64,000 nucleotides of DNA. Source: Polytrichum commune. Its lineage: Eukaryota; Streptophyta; Polytrichopsida; Polytrichales; Polytrichaceae. The stretch lies in contig OX485803.1 in NCBI GenBank assembly GCA_950295325.1, positions 5,888,001-5,952,000 of the forward strand. Direction: 5' to 3'. How positions within the stretch are numbered: the stretch's first letter is position 1; each line of letters opens with the position of its first letter. A program made the translations under genes and the position numbers. Shown here piece after piece: positions 3,001-43,527 of the stretch. Under the pieces are notes generated by a model. The model was not told where the DNA came from. It was given only the letters and a program-made list of their open reading frames with translations, and searched no databases.

Positions 3001-5662
3001 ACATGAAAATTTCTAGAATTCGAGGGGGAATGTGATGCCCATTGAAAAAGATGGGCTGTGTACTTGCAATCAGCAGCGCAACAAGTGTTTTTTAATACTG
3101 TACATGCCTTGTGACCTATCTACCTATGATAGAACTCATTTGCGGGAGCATCTCGAATGTGTCTTTCACCAGTGCTACTGCAGAGCGTAGCCTATCAAAA
3201 ATATAATGCAGACATATTGACTTTGACAAATTATGAGTGATGTCAACCATTAACCTGACCTTCCCAAAAAATTTCACCAGCCTCACATCTCCACACATTC
3301 ACACCCTCCAGATGCAGAGTAGACATTCTAATATGGAGTGACAAACTATCTGCCTGAATGAAGACACCCAAAACCACTTCGTGAACCCCTAATAAACATA
3401 ACCCTAGATAATAAATGATCCAAGCAAATTGAATATATGTAAGTATTATGTATACCATACCTGCAAGGTCAACAAGGTTCAGCTTGCCAGTCAGAAACTC
3501 ATGTTGGCTGGTTTCATCTTCATTTGTAACCATCACTGATAGAACTGCATGGCTACAGCTGGAGATGTCAGTGGCACCTATTCTCCGTCTTGCACAACCC
3601 TCTGTAAATAAGCTAAGAAATTCTATGGTGCTCTTCACATGTACCTAAAGCATCCAGGGAAAGTCGATTAGTTCCTGAACAGGAAGAAGCATTTGAATAT
3701 AAAACTCAAACTCAAACTCTCCTGACAAAGATGTAATAAGTTCTTGGTTTAAACTCTGACTCAGTATTGCTGGTACAATTAGCATAATGAGATGATATAA
3801 AGAATTGTGGATATGAGTTAGCTTGCCTTTGTGAGTCCCTTCAACTGCATACGCCCTGAACTATCTTCACGGACAAAAAACTCTGTCATCTTAGGCTGCA
3901 GCAAATCATAAGAACGCTCCATGTACACATGGTAAAACGATATCTCAACTTTCTTGTGGCTTTGATTAGCCTCCAGTAGTATACTTTCAACTGCTAATGG
4001 CATAAGACCTGGTTGTTTGTCTGTACCCTGCACATTCATATTCAGTTGCAAGTTTGAAGAAATTTAGAAAGTATGTACTTTTTCAACTATATGCAAATGT
4101 CACTTGGCACTTGGCATTGATGATTCTGTACTAGAATCAATAACTGAAAGCTTTAATATTACAGTTCAAACATGACGCACAGTATCTGTATTGTGCGTAG
4201 TGTAGTACTGGTCAATTGGGGATTTATACGTCCACTTCTTGCTTAAAGGGCTTCAAAGTTTTCAACTTTACTACTGCCCACATGGAAAGCATCCAGGATG
4301 CTCTCCGTCCTACACGTCTCACCACATGGTTTCTAATGATATGAACGCCAGGTTATGTGTCATCTATTGTCTTGATAATTATGATATCTTGGAGCTCTTC
4401 AGGAATACATTAAATTAAATAGGAGCAGGTACCTCTCACACGGAGATAAGAGAAGGAAGGCACAAAAACAGAGACAATCTATACCATGTTTGGCTTTGAT
4501 GACTTAATCCAAGCATGCATAACATGAAGAATCAAGTGATATTTATGTTTTTGTCTTGATGTAATTGCTTCTGAGAAAAAATTCTACAAGTATTGCATAC
4601 GATTGATATGTGTCATGTCGAAGAGCTCCATAGAAGTTTGACATTTAAATCCTGAAAGTTTGCATATAGCAGAACTGAGATGTGTTTGTTTGTTCATCAA
4701 TGAAGATGTAACTAGTGGACAATTAAGAACTAAGGAAATTACCTTCATTGTGTACGTCTTTCCACTTCCATAAGCACCATGAGCAAATACAGTAGCGTTT
4801 TGCCCATCCATCACTTTTCGAATGACATGATTCATCTCAGCTGCAAAAATGTGTGCAGTGTTGCCGTCTTTTTCTCCATAGCATGCATCCAGCTTGTAGG
4901 CCTCACAACGGCTGCATCTCAGAACAACAATTATACATGAACCGTGTATGTCAACTTTCAATCTTATGAATATCTTGTTCAGCGATTCCAATACTCAACT
5001 TATCTGCAACCCTAAGTTTCTCTAGTTGCAGTATTTTACAAGTTCATGAGTAGAACGCTTTTCCACACCTGAATCTACAATATAGGGCCTAAAAAATCCA
5101 GTATTCAGGGTTTAGGGTTAATGCGACAACAAAGAGATCAGAAGGGGAACAGAAGCGTCGAAACTTCTTCATGTATTTTCCTAATTGCAAACCTTCTGTT
5201 CCAAACTTGTATCCTTCGAACATTGACAGCCATTAAGAATAACACAATCAGGATCATATTTACCTCCGTCAATACAATTCCATTGCAACGAACCACATTC
5301 CTGCGAACTCCATAAACTGACCTTGATTTAGCATTTGAATCAAAGATTTGGAAAATATCGTTGCCGTCAGTTCCCCGAATAATCTCGCAGCAAACAGCAG
5401 GAGAAACACAGATCTCTGTATGTGGACGAGAACCAGGGGGGCGACTCGGCTCATTACAAGCAGCCAGTTCTGACTGCAAAAAAGGGCGCACCCGCGCTAC
5501 TACTCGCACTTGTGATGATAGTACCGGTGCCTCAGCCCCTGAAGTTGGCTTGCTTGGAGCTCCAAAGCGGGAGCGGCTGGGAGTTTCCCGTGGACTGTTC
5601 GTGCCGGTCGTCATCACCTTCACCTTGGTGCGCCCTGGTGTGTGTAACTTCGAGATCAACAT
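1..5662 (-). CDS. Kinesin-10-type motor protein with C-terminal helix-hairpin-helix (3' end cut by window)
   Basis: Microtubule motor of the kinesin-10 (Kid/KIF22-like, plant KIN-10) type, which in the family acts on spindle or chromosome arms. Twelve exons join in phase (711 codons so far): 5322-5662, 4743-4911, 3827-4027, 3461-3644, 2604-2788, 2100-2398, 1877-1916, 1615-1762, 1131-1525, 733-795, 518-586, 162-200; a last exon may begin at 17 and run off the window. Residue landmarks: [10 protein letters not shown] at the motor start, Walker A GAYGSGKT (159-166), switch I SSCSH (265-269, Arg replaced by Cys), switch II LVDLAG (294-299), then [18 protein letters not shown]. The tail is low complexity and Ser/Pro-rich; the end carries a helix-hairpin-helix, [15 protein letters not shown] plus [13 protein letters not shown], the DNA-binding hallmark of Kid. 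The start is the first ATG after an in-frame TGA. Exon 3 seems to use a GC donor (AAG|GCAAGC). The model lacks about eight residues after DLAG: a missed mini-exon or a shortened loop 11. Confidence 0.85.
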
Positions 5663-31380: not shown

Positions 31381-32261
31381 ATGCGAAGGAAGAAGAGGCG
31401 ATGGTCCAGCAGCGAGCGTGATGGTGGCGGGGTGGCGGAGTCGGCGGAGGAGGAGAAAGGGGAGGCTGGCCCTTGTGCGGCGGCGGAGGTAAAGAGGGGA
31501 GGAGGAGGGATGGACGCCCTGCTGCAAGAGGGAGCACCGGTGGTGGAGCAGATTGCCACCAATCCAACCTTGGACCTGCAGCGCAGGGCAGAGCAGAGGC
31601 AAAGGCACGTGGATGGAGAGTTTGCGGATGAAGATGGTGACACGGCCACCGAATTCATCAACGCTGACCCCGTTCCTAGCCCCTTTGGAGAATCCTCCAC
31701 ACAGAAATTGGCAAAGACGCACAAGACAAGCTCGCAACAAGAAAACAGAAGCAATGCGCATCAGCAGACTGAATTTGCAAGGAGTAAGAGGGATACGGTG
31801 AAGGTAGGGTTGGACTCATGGGACAACGAGAGAGTTATGGTCATTTCGGATGACGAGGATGGGGATGGTGCATCCGTGTTTTGTGAGCGGTGCGGGGACT
31901 CCGTGGGGCTAGGCTCCATTTTCCAAATGCTTACATGCGCATGCCTTTTCTGCGAGCGGTGCTTGCGGCTGCACGCTGAGACTTTTCTGTACAACGCAGC
32001 CGAATTTGCTGGAAAGGAGAGCACCGCCATGGGGTCGGATGCAGTCATGGAGGTAGTGGGGACGAGTGATGGCGGTGGTAGGAGGATTGGGAAGTTGTTT
32101 GGTATGGCTGATTCATCATCATCATCGAGGTTGTTGAAGAGTGGAGGAGTAGAGGAAGCTGTGGTGGAGTCGATCTCGTGCCCGAAAGCTGAGTGTAGTG
32201 GCCGGTTTCCTCTTTCGTCGTCACAGATACTTGCACCTGAAGCATTCAGGTATTGGTTCTT

Positions 32262-32293
<32 letters not shown>

Positions 32294-35200
32294 CGTAGGA
32301 TGGATGTGTACTCCAATTGTTACTGGAAATTCAAGCAGTCGGTGAAGACTTTTGAGGATGGGTTTATCTCGTAATTTAGGTCTGGGTATAGGTACTTGTG
32401 AGTTTCATTGCAGGTTTGGGATTTCTAAGTGATTACGATGTAAGTGTCAAATTTGGTATTTCTATTATGGCGAGAGTTGTTTGAGAGGGGATTAGTAGGG
32501 AGAGATGTGGCAGATATGGATTGTCTGATCCTTAGCTAGGGTTTAAGTCTACACTCTTGTAGAAGTTCGTGAAATTAGGTATAATTCCATTCCAGGAGAA
32601 GGTCTCGGTGATCCTTTCTCTGGTAACTGAAAGGGCTGTACCTTGGACCTGAAAACTTTTTCAAAGTGGCGTAGGGACTCCATTTAGATTGATCTGCTGT
32701 CTTAACCACATCAAATTATCATTGTTCCTACACTAGGGAGTGTTTTGAAGTGATTGTGGATCTCTGAGCAGTCTGCTGATGTTGGTCATGATACTGTTTC
32801 ATGTCAATCAGAAAGTGGGAGGAGGCAGCTAATGAAGCTTTCTTCAAGAAGAATTCAGCATTTGTACGATGCCCAGGCTGTACAACGGTCTTTGAGAAGG
32901 TCATGGGAGTTATCCCACCTGGGGTTGCTCTAACTGGAGTACCGGAATTAGATAGAACAGCACCGTTCATCGAACTTGATAATGAAGGTCGCCGACTTTC
33001 AAGACTTGCCATGTGTCACAAGGCTACCAATCGGTTCCGTTGCAGGGTTTGCACAATTGATTTTTGTGGAGCTTGCATGGAGTTACCATACCATCTTGGA
33101 AAAACTTGTGAGGAAGCTGCAGAGGAAAAAAATGCAGCTAGGTGTTTGTATTGTGAAGTCCCATTGCGGGCTTCACGGAGATGGGTTGATGACAAGGACT
33201 TGAACCTCAGGTTTGTCTTTTATATGCAGGTTTCAAAAATTTAGGTTCATTGTGTTGGTTGAGATAATCTGTAATGATCTGTTGCACAAAATTTGAATGG
33301 TGTAACACTATATTGTCCTATTGAGTTCTTCTGTGTGAGAAGGTGAAGACCTTACCTATGGGCAGGGTTTCATTGTTTGAAGTACACAGGGGTGATTGGT
33401 GGACTTGATTTTTCCATGCAGGTCTGTGAAGGATCTTCAGAATCAACTAAATAGGGAAGGGGTGGATGCAGCCTGGTGTGTCGAGAAAGGGGATCTGGTG
33501 GCAGTGCAGCGCTTTGTAGCTGGTATTTGTGAGGCGAAAGATTGTCGAAAACGTGCATCAATGTCATGCACCCGAAACTTGGAATGTGGGCATCATTGTG
33601 GAGGAGTGCGAGGTGAACGGCTTTGCCTACCGTGTTTAGAGGTAATTTACTCTTTCAAATCAGGACTATCTGTGAATCAATTGGTATGCATGTGGATGAG
33701 AGGCAAGAGTTGAGGAATAGAGTTTGAGATTGCACTGTGCTCAGAGCACTTGGAAAGTAGGAAAGTTTGGTGACTTGGATTGTGGAAGCTCAAAATCTTA
33801 GATAAGTATGCTAAGATTTAGACTCCGAAAGGTGTGTTACAATTACTTTGTTGATATTACAAGTCTATCTTGTAGATAGTCAACCCCTAAGAGTTTTGCT
33901 TTGAAAGTCACAATGTAAATATGTGAGTTGACACCATTGGCAAAGGGTCAGAGGTGATTATGTTGAACACATTCAGAATATATGAACTGGTCACCTGAAA
34001 TCCAGTGGATTGTGTGCATGTGTTTAGTTGATAAATCTGATAACAGTCTTGGCATTATAGTACTCAGGACTGCTGTGACTTCTAACAACTCCTTTTATGA
34101 GGGCAATAATTTCGTCCTTTTCTGAGCCTGTTTGTCAGTCTTGTGTCAGTCGTTGGCTCTTGCCACCAGCTTCAAAGTGGCTTGTTGTAAAACGGGTGCT
34201 CTTTTAAACAGCTGTAAGAGACTTTAAGGACCATATACCATGGTGTTGATTAGCCACTCTTAGACCGGTCAATGAAATTTGTGATTGATTATGTTTGTAA
34301 ATCAAACACCTTATAATTGCTGTGGGGTTTCACTTCTCTTTAGCAGTCAACAGGTACAGTACAGTATCAACAAGAGAGTTTTCTTTTTGATGGTTTATAC
34401 CTATATAGACGAGCTCATGCTGTTTGTTGCTTGTATAGGAGGAATGCCAACAGAACGCTGCTGTGCTATTGGGAAGACATTTTCTACCTGTTGCCACTGA
34501 CTTGTGTGGCATATGCTTGGTAGAGCCCCTACAGCGTGCACCATCCATCCAGCTCCACTGTGGGCATGTGGTACACATGCACTGTGCAAAACAGAAATTG
34601 GCCCAGGGTTTCCCAGGTCCAGGAATCAGCTTCGGTTACTTGAACTGTCCCCAGTGTCCACAGCCTATGCAACATGTGGGTCTGGATGCTGATTTGCGGA
34701 AGCATTTGGTGCTGATGAGCTTGGTATGCTGCAACTTACTGGTGCAATATGCACTTACTTTTTGTGGATTCGGGTATTGGGAGTTGGCTATGCTTCCTTT
34801 GCACCATTAAGACTTTACTGTCCCTTGTATGTAGATTTTCTCTGCTCTCACTTAGTGGACGTAGGAGTCCCAGGTAGTCAATGTTGATGAGTTGGGATGT
34901 GGGAGGACACCTTGATAGAAAATTGGTGTCAGAAATATGGTCTTAAGAATCTCTGATGTCCTAAACTTGTCAGAATTTGGTCCTTCAGTCTGGTGATTTA
35001 CAGGTCTGTATTGATTTTGTTTGCTATTGCACAGGTCCTCTCTGATGTAGAAAGGGGTAAGGGTTGTGTGTGGTTTGCCCTTCCAAATGCTGTTGGGTGC
35101 TGACAAATTGATGTGTTATGGGCAGGTGGAAGACAAGGCTTTGAAGAGACTGTCTATGGAGGGGTTATTGAAGTCTGCCAAAGAGCTCCAGCCAGGTGGC

Positions 35201-35914
35201 GGCTTTGAGGGGAGGCCAACATCATATGCGCTTCAGTTGTATCAATATTATGTGTGCAGCAAGTGCAATGCACCATACTGTGGTGGCAAGCGTGACTGCA
35301 TGAGGAATGAAAGGTGGATAATACTGAACGATCTTGATGTCTTTAATTTTTTAATATTTTGTTTTTTTGTTCTGCTTGCATACCTGCAAACAGACTTCAT
35401 ATTTTATCGCAAACTTAAAATGGCTGTGTTCTCTACTTACATTCATCAGGAGAAGATTTGAGCTAGATGCACAGATTTTGTCTTTTGATATCTTATGGAC
35501 CAAATGATTACGAATTATATGACTGCTCATGGATAATATGCACATGTGAGTCGGCTTTTGATAGTTTTGTTCATGGATGACATCAGAAACGAGGTGCATG
35601 AAGCACATAATCCAGCAGATCTGGTATGTGGGGCCTGCTCAGCAGCAGCGGGTGGCTATGGATTGTGCAAAAAAGGTCATGGCAAGGAATACATAGAATT
35701 TAAATGTCGTTTCTGCTGCTCTCCAGCCACTTATTTTTGCTTTGGGCGGACACATTTCTGTGACACCTGTCATATTTCTCGGCCTGATATGCAGAAAGAC
35801 ATTGTCCTTAACCAATGCAAGGGACCTAAGTGGTGCCCTTTGCGAATACCCCACTTACCAAATGGGGAAGAATGCTGTCTTGGGTGCTCTATGTGTCGTT
35901 TTGAAAATCAATGA
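31381..35914 (+). CDS. Putative RING-Cys-relay E3 ubiquitin ligase with RBR-like N-terminal module
   Basis: Six exons in phase encode 762 aa: 31381-32249, 32812-33210, 33422-33641, 34439-34723, 35126-35313, 35587-35914. The N-terminal 160 residues are low complexity and acidic. Then come a RING1-like cluster (CERCGD at about 168, CACLFCERC), an IBR-like domain (about 296-390: AFRKWEEAANEAF, CPGC, FRCRVCTIDFCGACMELPYH), an NF-X1-like cluster (LECGHHCGGVRGERLCLPC), a RING-H2 (519-569: CGICLVEPL, IQLHCGHVVHMHC, LNCPQC), and a tandem-cysteine domain. The RING-H2 and tandem-cysteine parts closely resemble the C-terminus of animal MYCBP2/PHR1, whose RING passes ubiquitin through two catalytic cysteines to Thr/Ser. 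The equivalents of MYCBP2 Cys4520, Glu4534, Cys4572 and His4583 appear to be C649 (GGKRDC), D665 (ADLVCGAC), C705 (YFCFGRTHFC) and H716. No RBR RING2 is present. The ATG at 31381 is the first in frame. An (AATC)n tract follows the first donor (32262-32293). Confidence 0.88.
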
Positions 35915-40131: not shown

Positions 40132-43100
40132 CTATGCACCATGAATAGCTGACCTCTTAAAAACCACCAGTGACAATACCAACACTGACAGCATCATACT
40201 TGACCTGACTGTGCGTTCAAAGAAATCATCAGTCTCACTGAGGTAGACTTTCTTTTCTGCTGTGTCGAAGATGCCACTTATAAGTTCCTGGAGTGTTGCG
40301 ATGAAGTGAGAGAATGCTGTTTTAGTGTTCCAAAAGAATTGTGAGAAAACATTCATCTCCTCCTTCAAAGGTTTATTTCCATCATGTTCAGTAAGGTCAG
40401 CTCCGTGCTCAATAGCCCCTGCAAAAGAGCATGTTCACTTATGTAACTCAAACTTGAAATTTATAACAAGAAACTTTTTAAATTTGCAACGACTGTCATT
40501 ATCACAACACCAAAGATTAGTGGACAGAGCCCAGATTGAATAACATGTGAATTGACTTAATCCAGTGACTTCAAATCAACCACAACTCCAACATGTATGA
40601 AGGATAAAGCTGCCACTAATGATTTCACCATACAGTGAAAGGAAGTGTTTACCATCAGCTGCACGAAGTGTAGATCTGAATTCTTGTATCTGTTCATTGG
40701 CCAATACTGCATCCCAAACTCCCTTATCTGTAGCTAATGAGACGACCATTTTCTGCACATGTTGGCAAAACACAAAACATCACGTAATGAAACCAACCAT
40801 CAACGCTTCAGTTCATAAACGCTTTACAATTTAAATTGAAGTACATATGACAACATGGAAGTCCATATGCTGCAACCTAGCCCCAAAAATCTCTTGCCAA
40901 CATGCAACTATATTCAGCATCTGCATACTTGTTTGACTCAAATTGATTAATATTGAAAATTGTCAAAACAATGCTATGCATGATACCTCAGCATATTTAC
41001 ATTAGTAGTTAGATAACTCAAAGTCCAGCAGGAGTTGCTGCATAAGAACAGAAAAGTTAACTAAAAACTTGGTTGGCTTGGGTTACATTATTCCTAAATG
41101 CTATTGCTAACCAACATGCAGCCTTGCACATGGGGCAGGTACAGAGGCTATCAAAAGATTCTAGACTATCTAAAAAGCGTCAAGACCTGTGCATACCTGG
41201 ACCTGTGGATTGTGCTGGAACTGGTGAAAAGCCTCTAGCATTGCACTTCTTCCACCAACTTCAGAGCTCCTTGGAATAGATGTCACATCCAGGGGTGCAG
41301 GTTCAATCCAATCACTCTTTGTGACCTGACTAATTACATGATACTCGACCTCCTCCACCTCCAGTACAGAAGCCGAAGTGTTCTCAGAGCCAGAAGCGGC
41401 TGGTGAGGCAGTGCGTGGTGACTCCACTGAAGTTGGAGTGCTGCCTGTAATCAGCCCTCTGCCAGGAATACACAACACATCTAAGGGCCGCTTTACAATA
41501 TGGCCAAGAGCCGTGACCAGGAAATTGTGAGGGCACGTGGAACGCATCTGAAGGCTGTACCGTGGAAAATTGGTATTGGATTTTGTGTGGTCACAAGTCT
41601 GTAAGTGTAGTGTAAAGACCTGCATGACCAGGCTCTCCACTGAATGCTATTTCATCACCATCCGAGTCACATAGGCCCTTCTACACAATAAGTTGAGAAA
41701 AAATAAGGGTTGTGAGATTTTAAAGTGTCATGGTCTCCCAAAATTGTGTTAGACTCACCTCTTTGAGCTTGACACAAAATCTGGTAGACCATGGAACATT
41801 ATCCATTTCATGCCATGTAGGAATCCATGGAGGGATTTCATCCATTCAAACTTCCTTCGTCCCTTACGCCCTCAAGCTCTACTGCAAAGTGGAGTGGTAC
41901 GGTCTCCATGTTTTCCACCAATGAGAGATTTAAATTTCAATGATCAATGGCCCCTCAAGCTCTACTGTAAAGTGTTCCTGACTCTTTAAAATGGTCATAA
42001 AATGTGACGCAGTTCAATGCTCCAAGACACAATGATGAGTATCTAAACTATCGGCCACCATTCAGATGTCTGTTCCCACCTTGGACGGCCATGAAAAACT
42101 CCCTCACCAGTTTCTAGTGACAAGGTGAGGGAAAATTAACATCCTTCGCATTCGATTTACATCCTTGAACTCCCTGTATACTAGACTCAAACCCACAGTA
42201 AGGTATGTGGCCCCAATGTGGGCACTTCCAACGTCAAAGACATTTCTGGCCGTTGGATTGGCTCAAAAATTGCCTCATCTCAAGTGTGATCTATTACCGA
42301 GGTGGTCACTTCAAGTTTCCGAAATTGGAGTCTAGACGCCAAAGTAATAAGCGTCCAAAGTTTGCCATCGATAGTGAAGATTCTCTTACTCTTCAAATTA
42401 TCACATAGGCCTCCCAGTTGTAATATTCACTATTGAACCTATAATGGTGACCTCATTTTGAGCACACAGTCCGATCTCATTGAACACATGTCTTTTTAAG
42501 GTCCATTCTAGACAACGAACATTGCCATGTACCACTTGAAAATACAAGTCCGATTAAGAAGAGAGACCACGTAAGGCTCACAAACCTTAATGCAGAACAG
42601 CGCAGATTACAAAATAAGCATGCCCACGGACAGGCCACATGCCCGTACAGAAGTGTCAAACGCGAACTTCAAAATACTTTCAAACATTGTAAGCTCGGTG
42701 CAAAGTTTCAAAAAGACATGCGCATTACAAAATAAGGGTGACAATAGACAGGCCAAATGCCTATCAAGAAGTGTCAAAGGCCACCTTCGAGAAACTTTCA
42801 GAATTGCGAGTTGAGAGCAGACTTTCACAAAGGCATGCACATGTTGCCGAGGGCGCTTTAACCCTGACAAATTCCATTGTGCAAGGCAAACGTTTTCCCA
42901 GAGGGTCCCAGTGGGATAGATAGATAGATATACACTTACAAGCGAAGAGCGTTTTGGAGGTCGGAAGTGGCCTCTTCCACTTCCCGCTGGGTAGGCAAAG
43001 TCCCGAAGACCAAGATATCCCGCTCTTCATCCCCAGCGATCTCCCAGTCTTCAATATCCCAAAACTGCTTCAACCCCGAGTTGTTGTTGTTGCTGTTGAC

Positions 43101-43283
43101 CTGACTATTGTTTGAATGGTGCACCTCGGCAGGGCAACTGCAGGCCACTCGAGCCGATGGCGAAGCGGTCCGAAGTGCGGGGGTGGTAGTGCACATGCGG
43201 CACATTGCGGCATTGGAAGCGACAGTGGGGGCCGACGACCCCACTACTCGAATCACGCTCCTCCACATCGCTCCTCCTCCCAT
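40132..43283 (-). CDS. Uncharacterised plant protein with C-terminal membrane anchor
   Basis: Four exons in phase give 330 aa: 42940-43283, 41197-41458, 40653-40752, 40132-40418. The start is the ATG giving MGGGAMWRSVIR; a longer reading lacks an ATG. The N-terminal 70 residues are Ser/Ala/Asn-rich, followed by FWDIEDWEIAGDEERDILVF and REVEEATSDLQNALR. The middle has acidic EVEEVEYHV and a conserved-looking SAMLEAFHQFQHNP, then GVWDAVLANEQIQEFRSTLR, and FFWNTKTAFSHFIATLQELI. The end is SSMMLSVLVLSLVVFKRSA, a single hydrophobic helix close to the C-terminus, so a tail-anchored topology is likely. Plant genomes carry related proteins of unknown function, from general memory; I assign none. Intron 1 contains a Tourist-like MITE that ends 26 bases from the exon 2 acceptor. 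Confidence 0.78.
41485..41980. mobile_element. Tourist-like MITE, diverged copy in an intron
   Basis: Begins TAA-GGGCCGCTTTACAAT, then gccaagagccgtgacc as in the intact copy at 53684, and shows the interior landmarks (accatggaacattatccatt, ccaatgagag). The right end is degenerate (actgtaaagtg). It lies in intron 1 of the C-tail gene, just upstream of the exon 2 splice acceptor. Confidence 0.7.
42190..42600. repeat. Diverged dispersed repeat shared with 50640-51000
   Basis: Shares gtgggcacttccaacgtc-like and cgttggattggctcaa-like blocks, and the aagaagagagaccac block, with 50640-51000. Weaker relatives lie at 29110 and 30200. The tract at 42590-42870 additionally shows two ~120-bp tandem units containing ttacaaaataag and aagtgtcaaa. 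Confidence 0.5.
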
Positions 43284-43527
43284 CCCCTGACTGCTCCCCA
43301 AAACCCTTATGCCCCTCTCACAAACCCTAAGGTCCCGTTCTGGGGCCCAACGCGAGCCCCCCGCACACCCGCGGCAGAACTTCCCCGCAGCACACACACA
43401 CACAGGGACGCAAACAAGCGTGCGAGTTCACTCACTCCGAGCAGAAGAGAAGCAACAACAACCCAAATCGCAACGCACGAAGCCAGTCAAGAATCGACCT
43501 GCTTCGTCATAACCCGCCAACGATAAC

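Follow-up and report, generated by a model that had tools for sequence, protein, structure and literature searches.

Does a moss encode a RING-Cys-relay (RCR) ubiquitin ligase, of which animal MYCBP2/PHR1 is the founding member, and if so, in what protein context? The question arises from a 64,000-nucleotide stretch of Polytrichum commune DNA (contig OX485803.1, positions 5,888,001 to 5,952,000 of the forward strand; hereafter the window, in whose coordinates all positions are given), for which an earlier note had proposed that a predicted plant protein carries the complete catalytic set of MYCBP2. We rebuilt from the window DNA a forward-strand gene at 31381–35914 with six exons (31381–32249, 32812–33210, 33422–33641, 34439–34723, 35126–35313 and 35587–35914), which together read as one uninterrupted frame of 762 codons and a stop codon; the model was put together by eye, without a transcript, and all five introns are GT..AG and in frame. 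The segment considered earlier, 34439–35914, corresponds to exons 4–6, and its numbering of C649, C705 and H716 was reproduced exactly. Since both the Ceratodon (P0001) and the Diphasiastrum (P0004) protein have their first residue opposite Met44 (codon at 31510), the sequence read as residues 1–43 is probably 5'UTR, with Met44 as the probable start codon and a true protein length of probably about 719 residues; residue numbers throughout refer to the 762-codon frame, not to the Met44 start. Elsewhere in the window, on the reverse strand, lie pieces of a kinesin motor gene (3246–3644 and 4587–4994; Pfam Kinesin, 38.4 and 46.8 bits respectively) and an open frame at 42939–43427, rich in Cys at its start and including a DIEDWEIAGDEERD stretch, for which all Pfam families were under cut-off. 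A search of the window against Rfam gave no match at the gathering threshold.

The C-terminal module and its relay residues

In a phmmer search of the PDB, residues 515–759 matched the MYCBP2 RCR constructs 5o6c_A (E 5.8e-54, 187 bits) and 6t7f_A (E 7.1e-54), the only PDB sequences matched by the whole protein at E ≤ 0.1, bearing out the likeness to MYCBP2 first noticed in the RING-H2 and tandem-cysteine (TC) domain. The RING-H2 (C519–C569, exon 4, 34505–34657) was located by MYCBP2 alignment and a Pfam zf-RING_2 score of 21.7 bits, under the cut-off of 27.3, and the TC domain (C635–C757, exons 5–6, 35255–35896) by MYCBP2 alignment. Identity to the MYCBP2 RCR crystal construct amounts to 100 of 239 aligned residues (41.8%), and a family profile matched the MYCBP2 RCR with E 9.5e-121. 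The likeness is not merely one of cysteines, since the local score against MYCBP2 was 508, compared to a mean of 76.5 and a maximum of 133 in 300 shuffles with Cys and His fixed. Cys and His residues of the MYCBP2 segment are retained at 29 of 33 positions (20/22 from residue 4500 onward), those not retained being C4417, H4477, H4599 and H4617. Models of the Ceratodon orthologue likewise had 5o6c and 6t7f as their best Foldseek and VIA-align matches, so that no other fold matched better, with the TC core of both models at low pLDDT and the best-Z alignment ending before C4572; because of this low confidence in the TC core, the free-thiol state of C649 and C705 is taken from homology. By sequence, we assign the C-terminal module to the MYCBP2 RCR family.

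Three homologue searches, two of which scored the best 7994 and 7995 candidates and the third, with a fern RCR region, all 1961, yielded 20, 13 and 21 matches respectively and 41 distinct proteins in all. Residues were counted over 39 rows, the window protein and 38 homologues, the N-terminal pieces P0025–P0027 being left out. As catalytic or pocket positions we took E4534, C4572, F4573, F4578, H4583 and F4586 of MYCBP2, the three Phe being those of the pocket. The upstream relay cysteine C649 (35297–35299; MYCBP2 C4520) is Cys in 38/39 rows, and the downstream cysteine C705 (35738–35740; the esterifying C4572 of MYCBP2) in 37, with a gap in the incomplete P0013; in both cases P0018 has W. H716 (35771–35773; H4583) is His in 37 rows, Tyr in P0041 and a gap in one. 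In P0018 many zinc-ligand cysteines are also read as W, a pattern that would fit a genetic code with TGA as Cys misread as Trp. The relay cysteines lie in GGKRDC (644–649) and YFCFGRTHFC (703–712) and are 56 residues apart, against 52 in MYCBP2, just as the earlier note had it.

The acceptor pocket presents a different picture. F4578 is Phe in 38 of the 39 rows (gap in the other), and at F4573 we found F in 23, W in 12, Y and G in one each and gaps in two. The acid position E4534 is Glu in 27 rows, Asp in 11, among them the window protein (D665, 35618–35620) and its three nearest rows, and Gln in one. At F4586, Phe occurs only in P0034, P0036 and P0037, all MYCBP2-like; the position is Arg in 16 of the 17 green rows, including R719 of the moss protein (35780–35782), W in the green row P0006, and widely variable outside the green rows. 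Thus the moss pocket retains F706 and F711 and has Arg719 at the third Phe position. The catalytic set had been called complete: C649, C705, F706, F711 and H716 are indeed in register, but with Asp665 for Glu and Arg719 for Phe that word is too strong. Since the relay residues are kept and the acceptor pocket is not, a relay enzyme is supported and threonine-specific ester chemistry is weakened.

Two local peculiarities were seen near these residues. The window protein, like the three rows nearest to it, has an extra cysteine, C643 (35279–35281, in PYCGGKRDC), six residues ahead of the relay Cys, at a position occupied by Phe or Tyr in the remaining rows looked at. The protein P0004 of the lycophyte Diphasiastrum has Gln at the acid position, Tyr at that of F4573 and Asn at that of H4577, and is perhaps losing activity.

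For MYCBP2 itself, C4520 is described as the relay cysteine (PMC12664034), and the text available from PMC9527308 describes a Cys-His-Glu triad and a hydrophobic Thr pocket linked to hydroxyl attack, the relay Cys pair and His being catalytic and not zinc ligands. The moss protein shares with MYCBP2 (5o6c, 6t7f) the RING-H2 and TC domains, the relay Cys pair, the catalytic His and two of three pocket Phe, and differs in having Asp for Glu4534, Arg for Phe4586 and Pro for the linchpin Lys. Moreover, MYCBP2 is a giant protein (construct numbering beyond 4600), whereas the moss protein has only ~720–762 residues.

The RBR-type front end and green-lineage motifs

Upstream of the RCR module lies a region resembling the front of RBR ligases. 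The region C168–C272 (exon 1, 31882–32196) matched RING1 domains in family-profile searches of the PDB, namely 1wim (KIAA0161/UbcM4-interacting protein 4; E 4.2e-6), RNF144A (6l99; E 5.1e-5) and RNF31/HOIP RING1 (7v8f; E 1.5e-3), and the Ceratodon orthologue models gave RING1 fold matches. Counting against a clean RBR reading, the RING1 region also matched RAD5 (6l8n; E 4.0e-5), and huntingtin (7dxk; E 4.6e-4) matched the low-complexity N-terminus. The IBR zinc domain (C310–C389, exon 2, 32870–33109) is supported by a family-profile match to the RNF31/HOIP IBR (2ct7; E 0.0068) and by PF01485 scores above the curated cut-off of 24.3 in homologues P0031 (41.7 bits), P0033 (39.4), P0023 (28.7) and P0008 (24.9), with P0010 just below at 24.2. 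Pfam IBR was undetected in the window protein itself, whose IBR is assigned by alignment and motif. An IBR sequence pattern was found in 28 of 42 proteins and missed P0008–P0010, though Pfam lists IBR in P0008 and P0010. A search of NCBIfam with three homologues gave nothing relevant.

The IBR is followed by a CxxC (C401/C404, 33143–33154), whose first cysteine is present in 21/21 rows and second in 20/21, the exception being W in P0018, and then by a zinc-knuckle segment (C459–C499, 33528–34447), split by intron 3 and seen in the alignment and its invariant columns as CTRxLxCGHxCGGVRGExxCLPCL. The core of this knuckle, CGHxCGGVxxExxCLPCL, is also found in the MYCBP2-like rows P0017 and P0036. 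No listed Pfam family had a best-scoring stretch between IBR and RING-H2 in the window protein and homologues searched. The domain order is RING1-IBR-knuckle-RING-TC, and residues ~168–389, judged by profile and alignment, are the RING1-IBR of the RBR ligase class, making this a protein with an RBR-type front and an RCR back.

The likeness to RBR ligases (ARIH1/ARIH2, RNF144A, RNF216, HOIP, HOIL-1, parkin) therefore lies in RING1 and IBR, as judged from both profile and fold matches; the moss protein differs from them in having no recognisable Rcat/RING2, its predicted catalytic cysteines being in the RCR module instead. Where it carries RING1-IBR, the MYCBP2-like rows P0017 and P0036 carry a B-box-like motif by pattern (Pfam B-box in P0017, 18.9 bits, sub-threshold). 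MYCBP2 was compared through its RCR construct only, and that it has no RING1-IBR is presumed from P0017 and P0036. The B-box-like motif (P0017 739–773, and P0036) sits at the IBR position of the hybrids with similar Cys/His spacing, and P0035 has a weak Pfam B-box match on its IBR (415–437; 15.9 bits, cut-off 24.1); the animal B-box could be an eroded IBR, a reading too weak to claim.

Two motifs are confined to the green rows. An insert with DxxWCVEK (residues 424–457, 33423–33524) occurs in 17/17 green rows and 0/22 other homologue rows and is absent in MYCBP2; its cysteine, C442, is invariant within WC(V/I)(E/D)(K/R), and the insert may serve as a helical binding motif or even supply an extra redox or relay cysteine. 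One candidate identity for it, a SAP-like helical motif, gained no support, a PDB search with the 34 residues giving a single match (E 0.65) that we took as chance. Near the N-terminus, an acidic motif, D(E/S)DGDxAxxF(I/L)xx(D/E) (residues 83–96, 31627–31668), was seen in 13/17 green rows and no others, the four green rows that miss it (P0003, P0021, P0024 and P0028) all beginning further in; it is perhaps a binding motif.

Homologues and their distribution

Named green sources of the homologues are Ceratodon, Sphagnum (an N-terminal piece), Diphasiastrum, Selaginella, Ceratopteris, Adiantum and Closterium, to which the JGI code of P0021 presumably adds Mesostigma; the other named sources are Moneuplotes, Stylonychia, Polysphondylium, two Dictyostelium and a krill. 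The family is not plant-specific, having relatives in amoebae and ciliates besides the green ones. Among the named sources of the 41 homologues there are no seed plants, the fully scored fern-RCR search (1961 candidates) included, their absence being indicated, not proven; no liverworts or hornworts are among the named sources either. Pattern scans of IMG/VR contigs and of prokaryotic genome contigs gave 48 and 106 pattern matches respectively, with no viral or prokaryotic relative among them.

In a tree of 37 RCR regions (P0025–P0027, P0013, P0018 and P0041 left out), the window protein groups with Ceratodon and two near rows (100/99), within a green clade of 17 rows (100/99), and five animal-labelled rows plus P0017 stand behind one branch (97/94); group labels of some rows were assigned by us beforehand, the support values coming from the tree itself. 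The deepest fork has weak support (68/44), and the tree is rooted at its midpoint. The RING1-IBR form is present in green plants, amoebae and ciliates, and the hybrid seems to predate the animal form, which would be derived; given that fork and that root, this view is drawn from the distribution.

As to what had been described before, a plant RBR survey distinguishes four subfamilies, which share RING1-IBR in a plant protein with our case, and the text available from it mentions no RCR module for any of them (PMC2904391). A plant RING catalogue that took in a moss and a lycopod has no occurrence of relay or MYCBP2 in its main text (PMC6118397), and a 2026 catalogue of human E3s lists MYCBP2 as a notable atypical ligase using the RCR mechanism (PMC13061254). 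Our search of the literature, with most subscription papers outside its scope, found no description of a plant RCR ligase among the matches listed, in agreement with the earlier note, whose author knew of none. Automatic names already point the same way, with 'RCR-type E3 ubiquitin transf...' in UniRef for the Polysphondylium relative and 'E3 ubiquitin-protein ligase MYCBP2' in JGI for P0003, P0031 and P0036; the novelty therefore lies in recognising the protein as such, in its hybrid architecture and in the plant clade.

Mechanism, alternatives and meaning

We put at roughly 80% the probability that the gene encodes an RCR ubiquitin ligase with an RBR-type front end, an active transthiolating E3 of the RCR type being the most likely product. 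Our direct results are the structure of the gene, its homology, the register of residues, the order of domains and the phylogeny; what RING1-IBR does, the specificity for esters and each catalytic step are inferred as follows. The RING-H2 would bind ubiquitin-loaded E2, and ubiquitin would move by transthiolation onto C649 on a mobile loop, be relayed from there to C705 and pass to a substrate hydroxyl with H716 and D665 as catalytic pair. Ester (Ser/Thr) specificity is less sure than the relay, and ester chemistry as such plausible but weaker. RBR ligases use the RING1-IBR fold to hold E2~ubiquitin or allosteric ubiquitin. In the moss protein, because no recognisable Rcat follows it, RING1-IBR would most likely be a ubiquitin/E2-sensing or regulatory (or E2-loading) module for the relay.

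The alternative to be taken most seriously, though we give it well under even odds, is an active relay ligase whose final acceptor is not protein Ser/Thr but lysine, a small-molecule hydroxyl, a sugar or ubiquitin itself. The strict retention of relay residues beside an unretained pocket speaks for it, with the green-row Arg and wide variability elsewhere at F4586, mostly F or W at F4573, and an Asp as the acid in the moss protein and its nearest rows; against it, F706 and F711 are retained, and the Cys-His-acid set stands in the MYCBP2 register, the one tied to hydroxyl attack in the text available from PMC9527308. It is unlikely that the RCR part lacks catalytic activity or is only a scaffold, with RING-H2 or RING1 acting as an ordinary RING ligase. 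Structure alone can conserve zinc-rich domains, and one lycophyte row is substituted near the active site, but C649, C705 and H716 are retained in all rows except P0018, P0013 and P0041, at positions described as catalytic in MYCBP2 (PMC9527308), and the moss RING has no Arg/Lys linchpin.

Slightly less probable again is a true RBR ligase with a catalytic Cys in the post-IBR knuckle, which would be a diverged Rcat, and with the RCR as an extra: none of the listed Pfam families has a best-scoring stretch on the knuckle, which is also found in P0017 and P0036, both without a RING1-IBR match. The spacing of its cysteines, too, departs from what we take to be the Rcat pattern. Finally, a model joined by eye from six exons might be a false fusion of a neighbouring RBR-like gene with an RCR gene. 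This we consider very improbable, in that RING1-IBR followed by RCR occurs in one protein in Ceratodon, Diphasiastrum, Selaginella, Ceratopteris, Closterium, dictyostelids and Moneuplotes, and every intron is GT-AG and frame-preserving.

The distribution of the RCR ligase with an RBR-type front suggests that two-cysteine relay chemistry long predates animals and extends well beyond them. Speculatively, and with the odds against it, the ancestral eukaryotic relay ligase may have been an RBR/RCR hybrid with two E2-binding RINGs, in which RING1-IBR captured a first E2~ubiquitin or sensed ubiquitin and the second RING fed the relay, joining both transthiolation mechanisms; animals would then have swapped the RBR front for a giant PHR/B-box scaffold, mosses, lycophytes and ferns would keep the original for non-lysine ubiquitylation, and seed plants would have lost it. 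If our reading is true, the compact moss homologue and its green and protist relatives would make the two-cysteine relay, and perhaps likewise ester ubiquitylation, an old eukaryotic tool and not a neuronal speciality. Being small, the moss protein would allow structural work on an RCR protein at full length; the hybrid would offer a testable link between RBR and RCR mechanisms, and moss genetics a means to probe the purpose of this chemistry.
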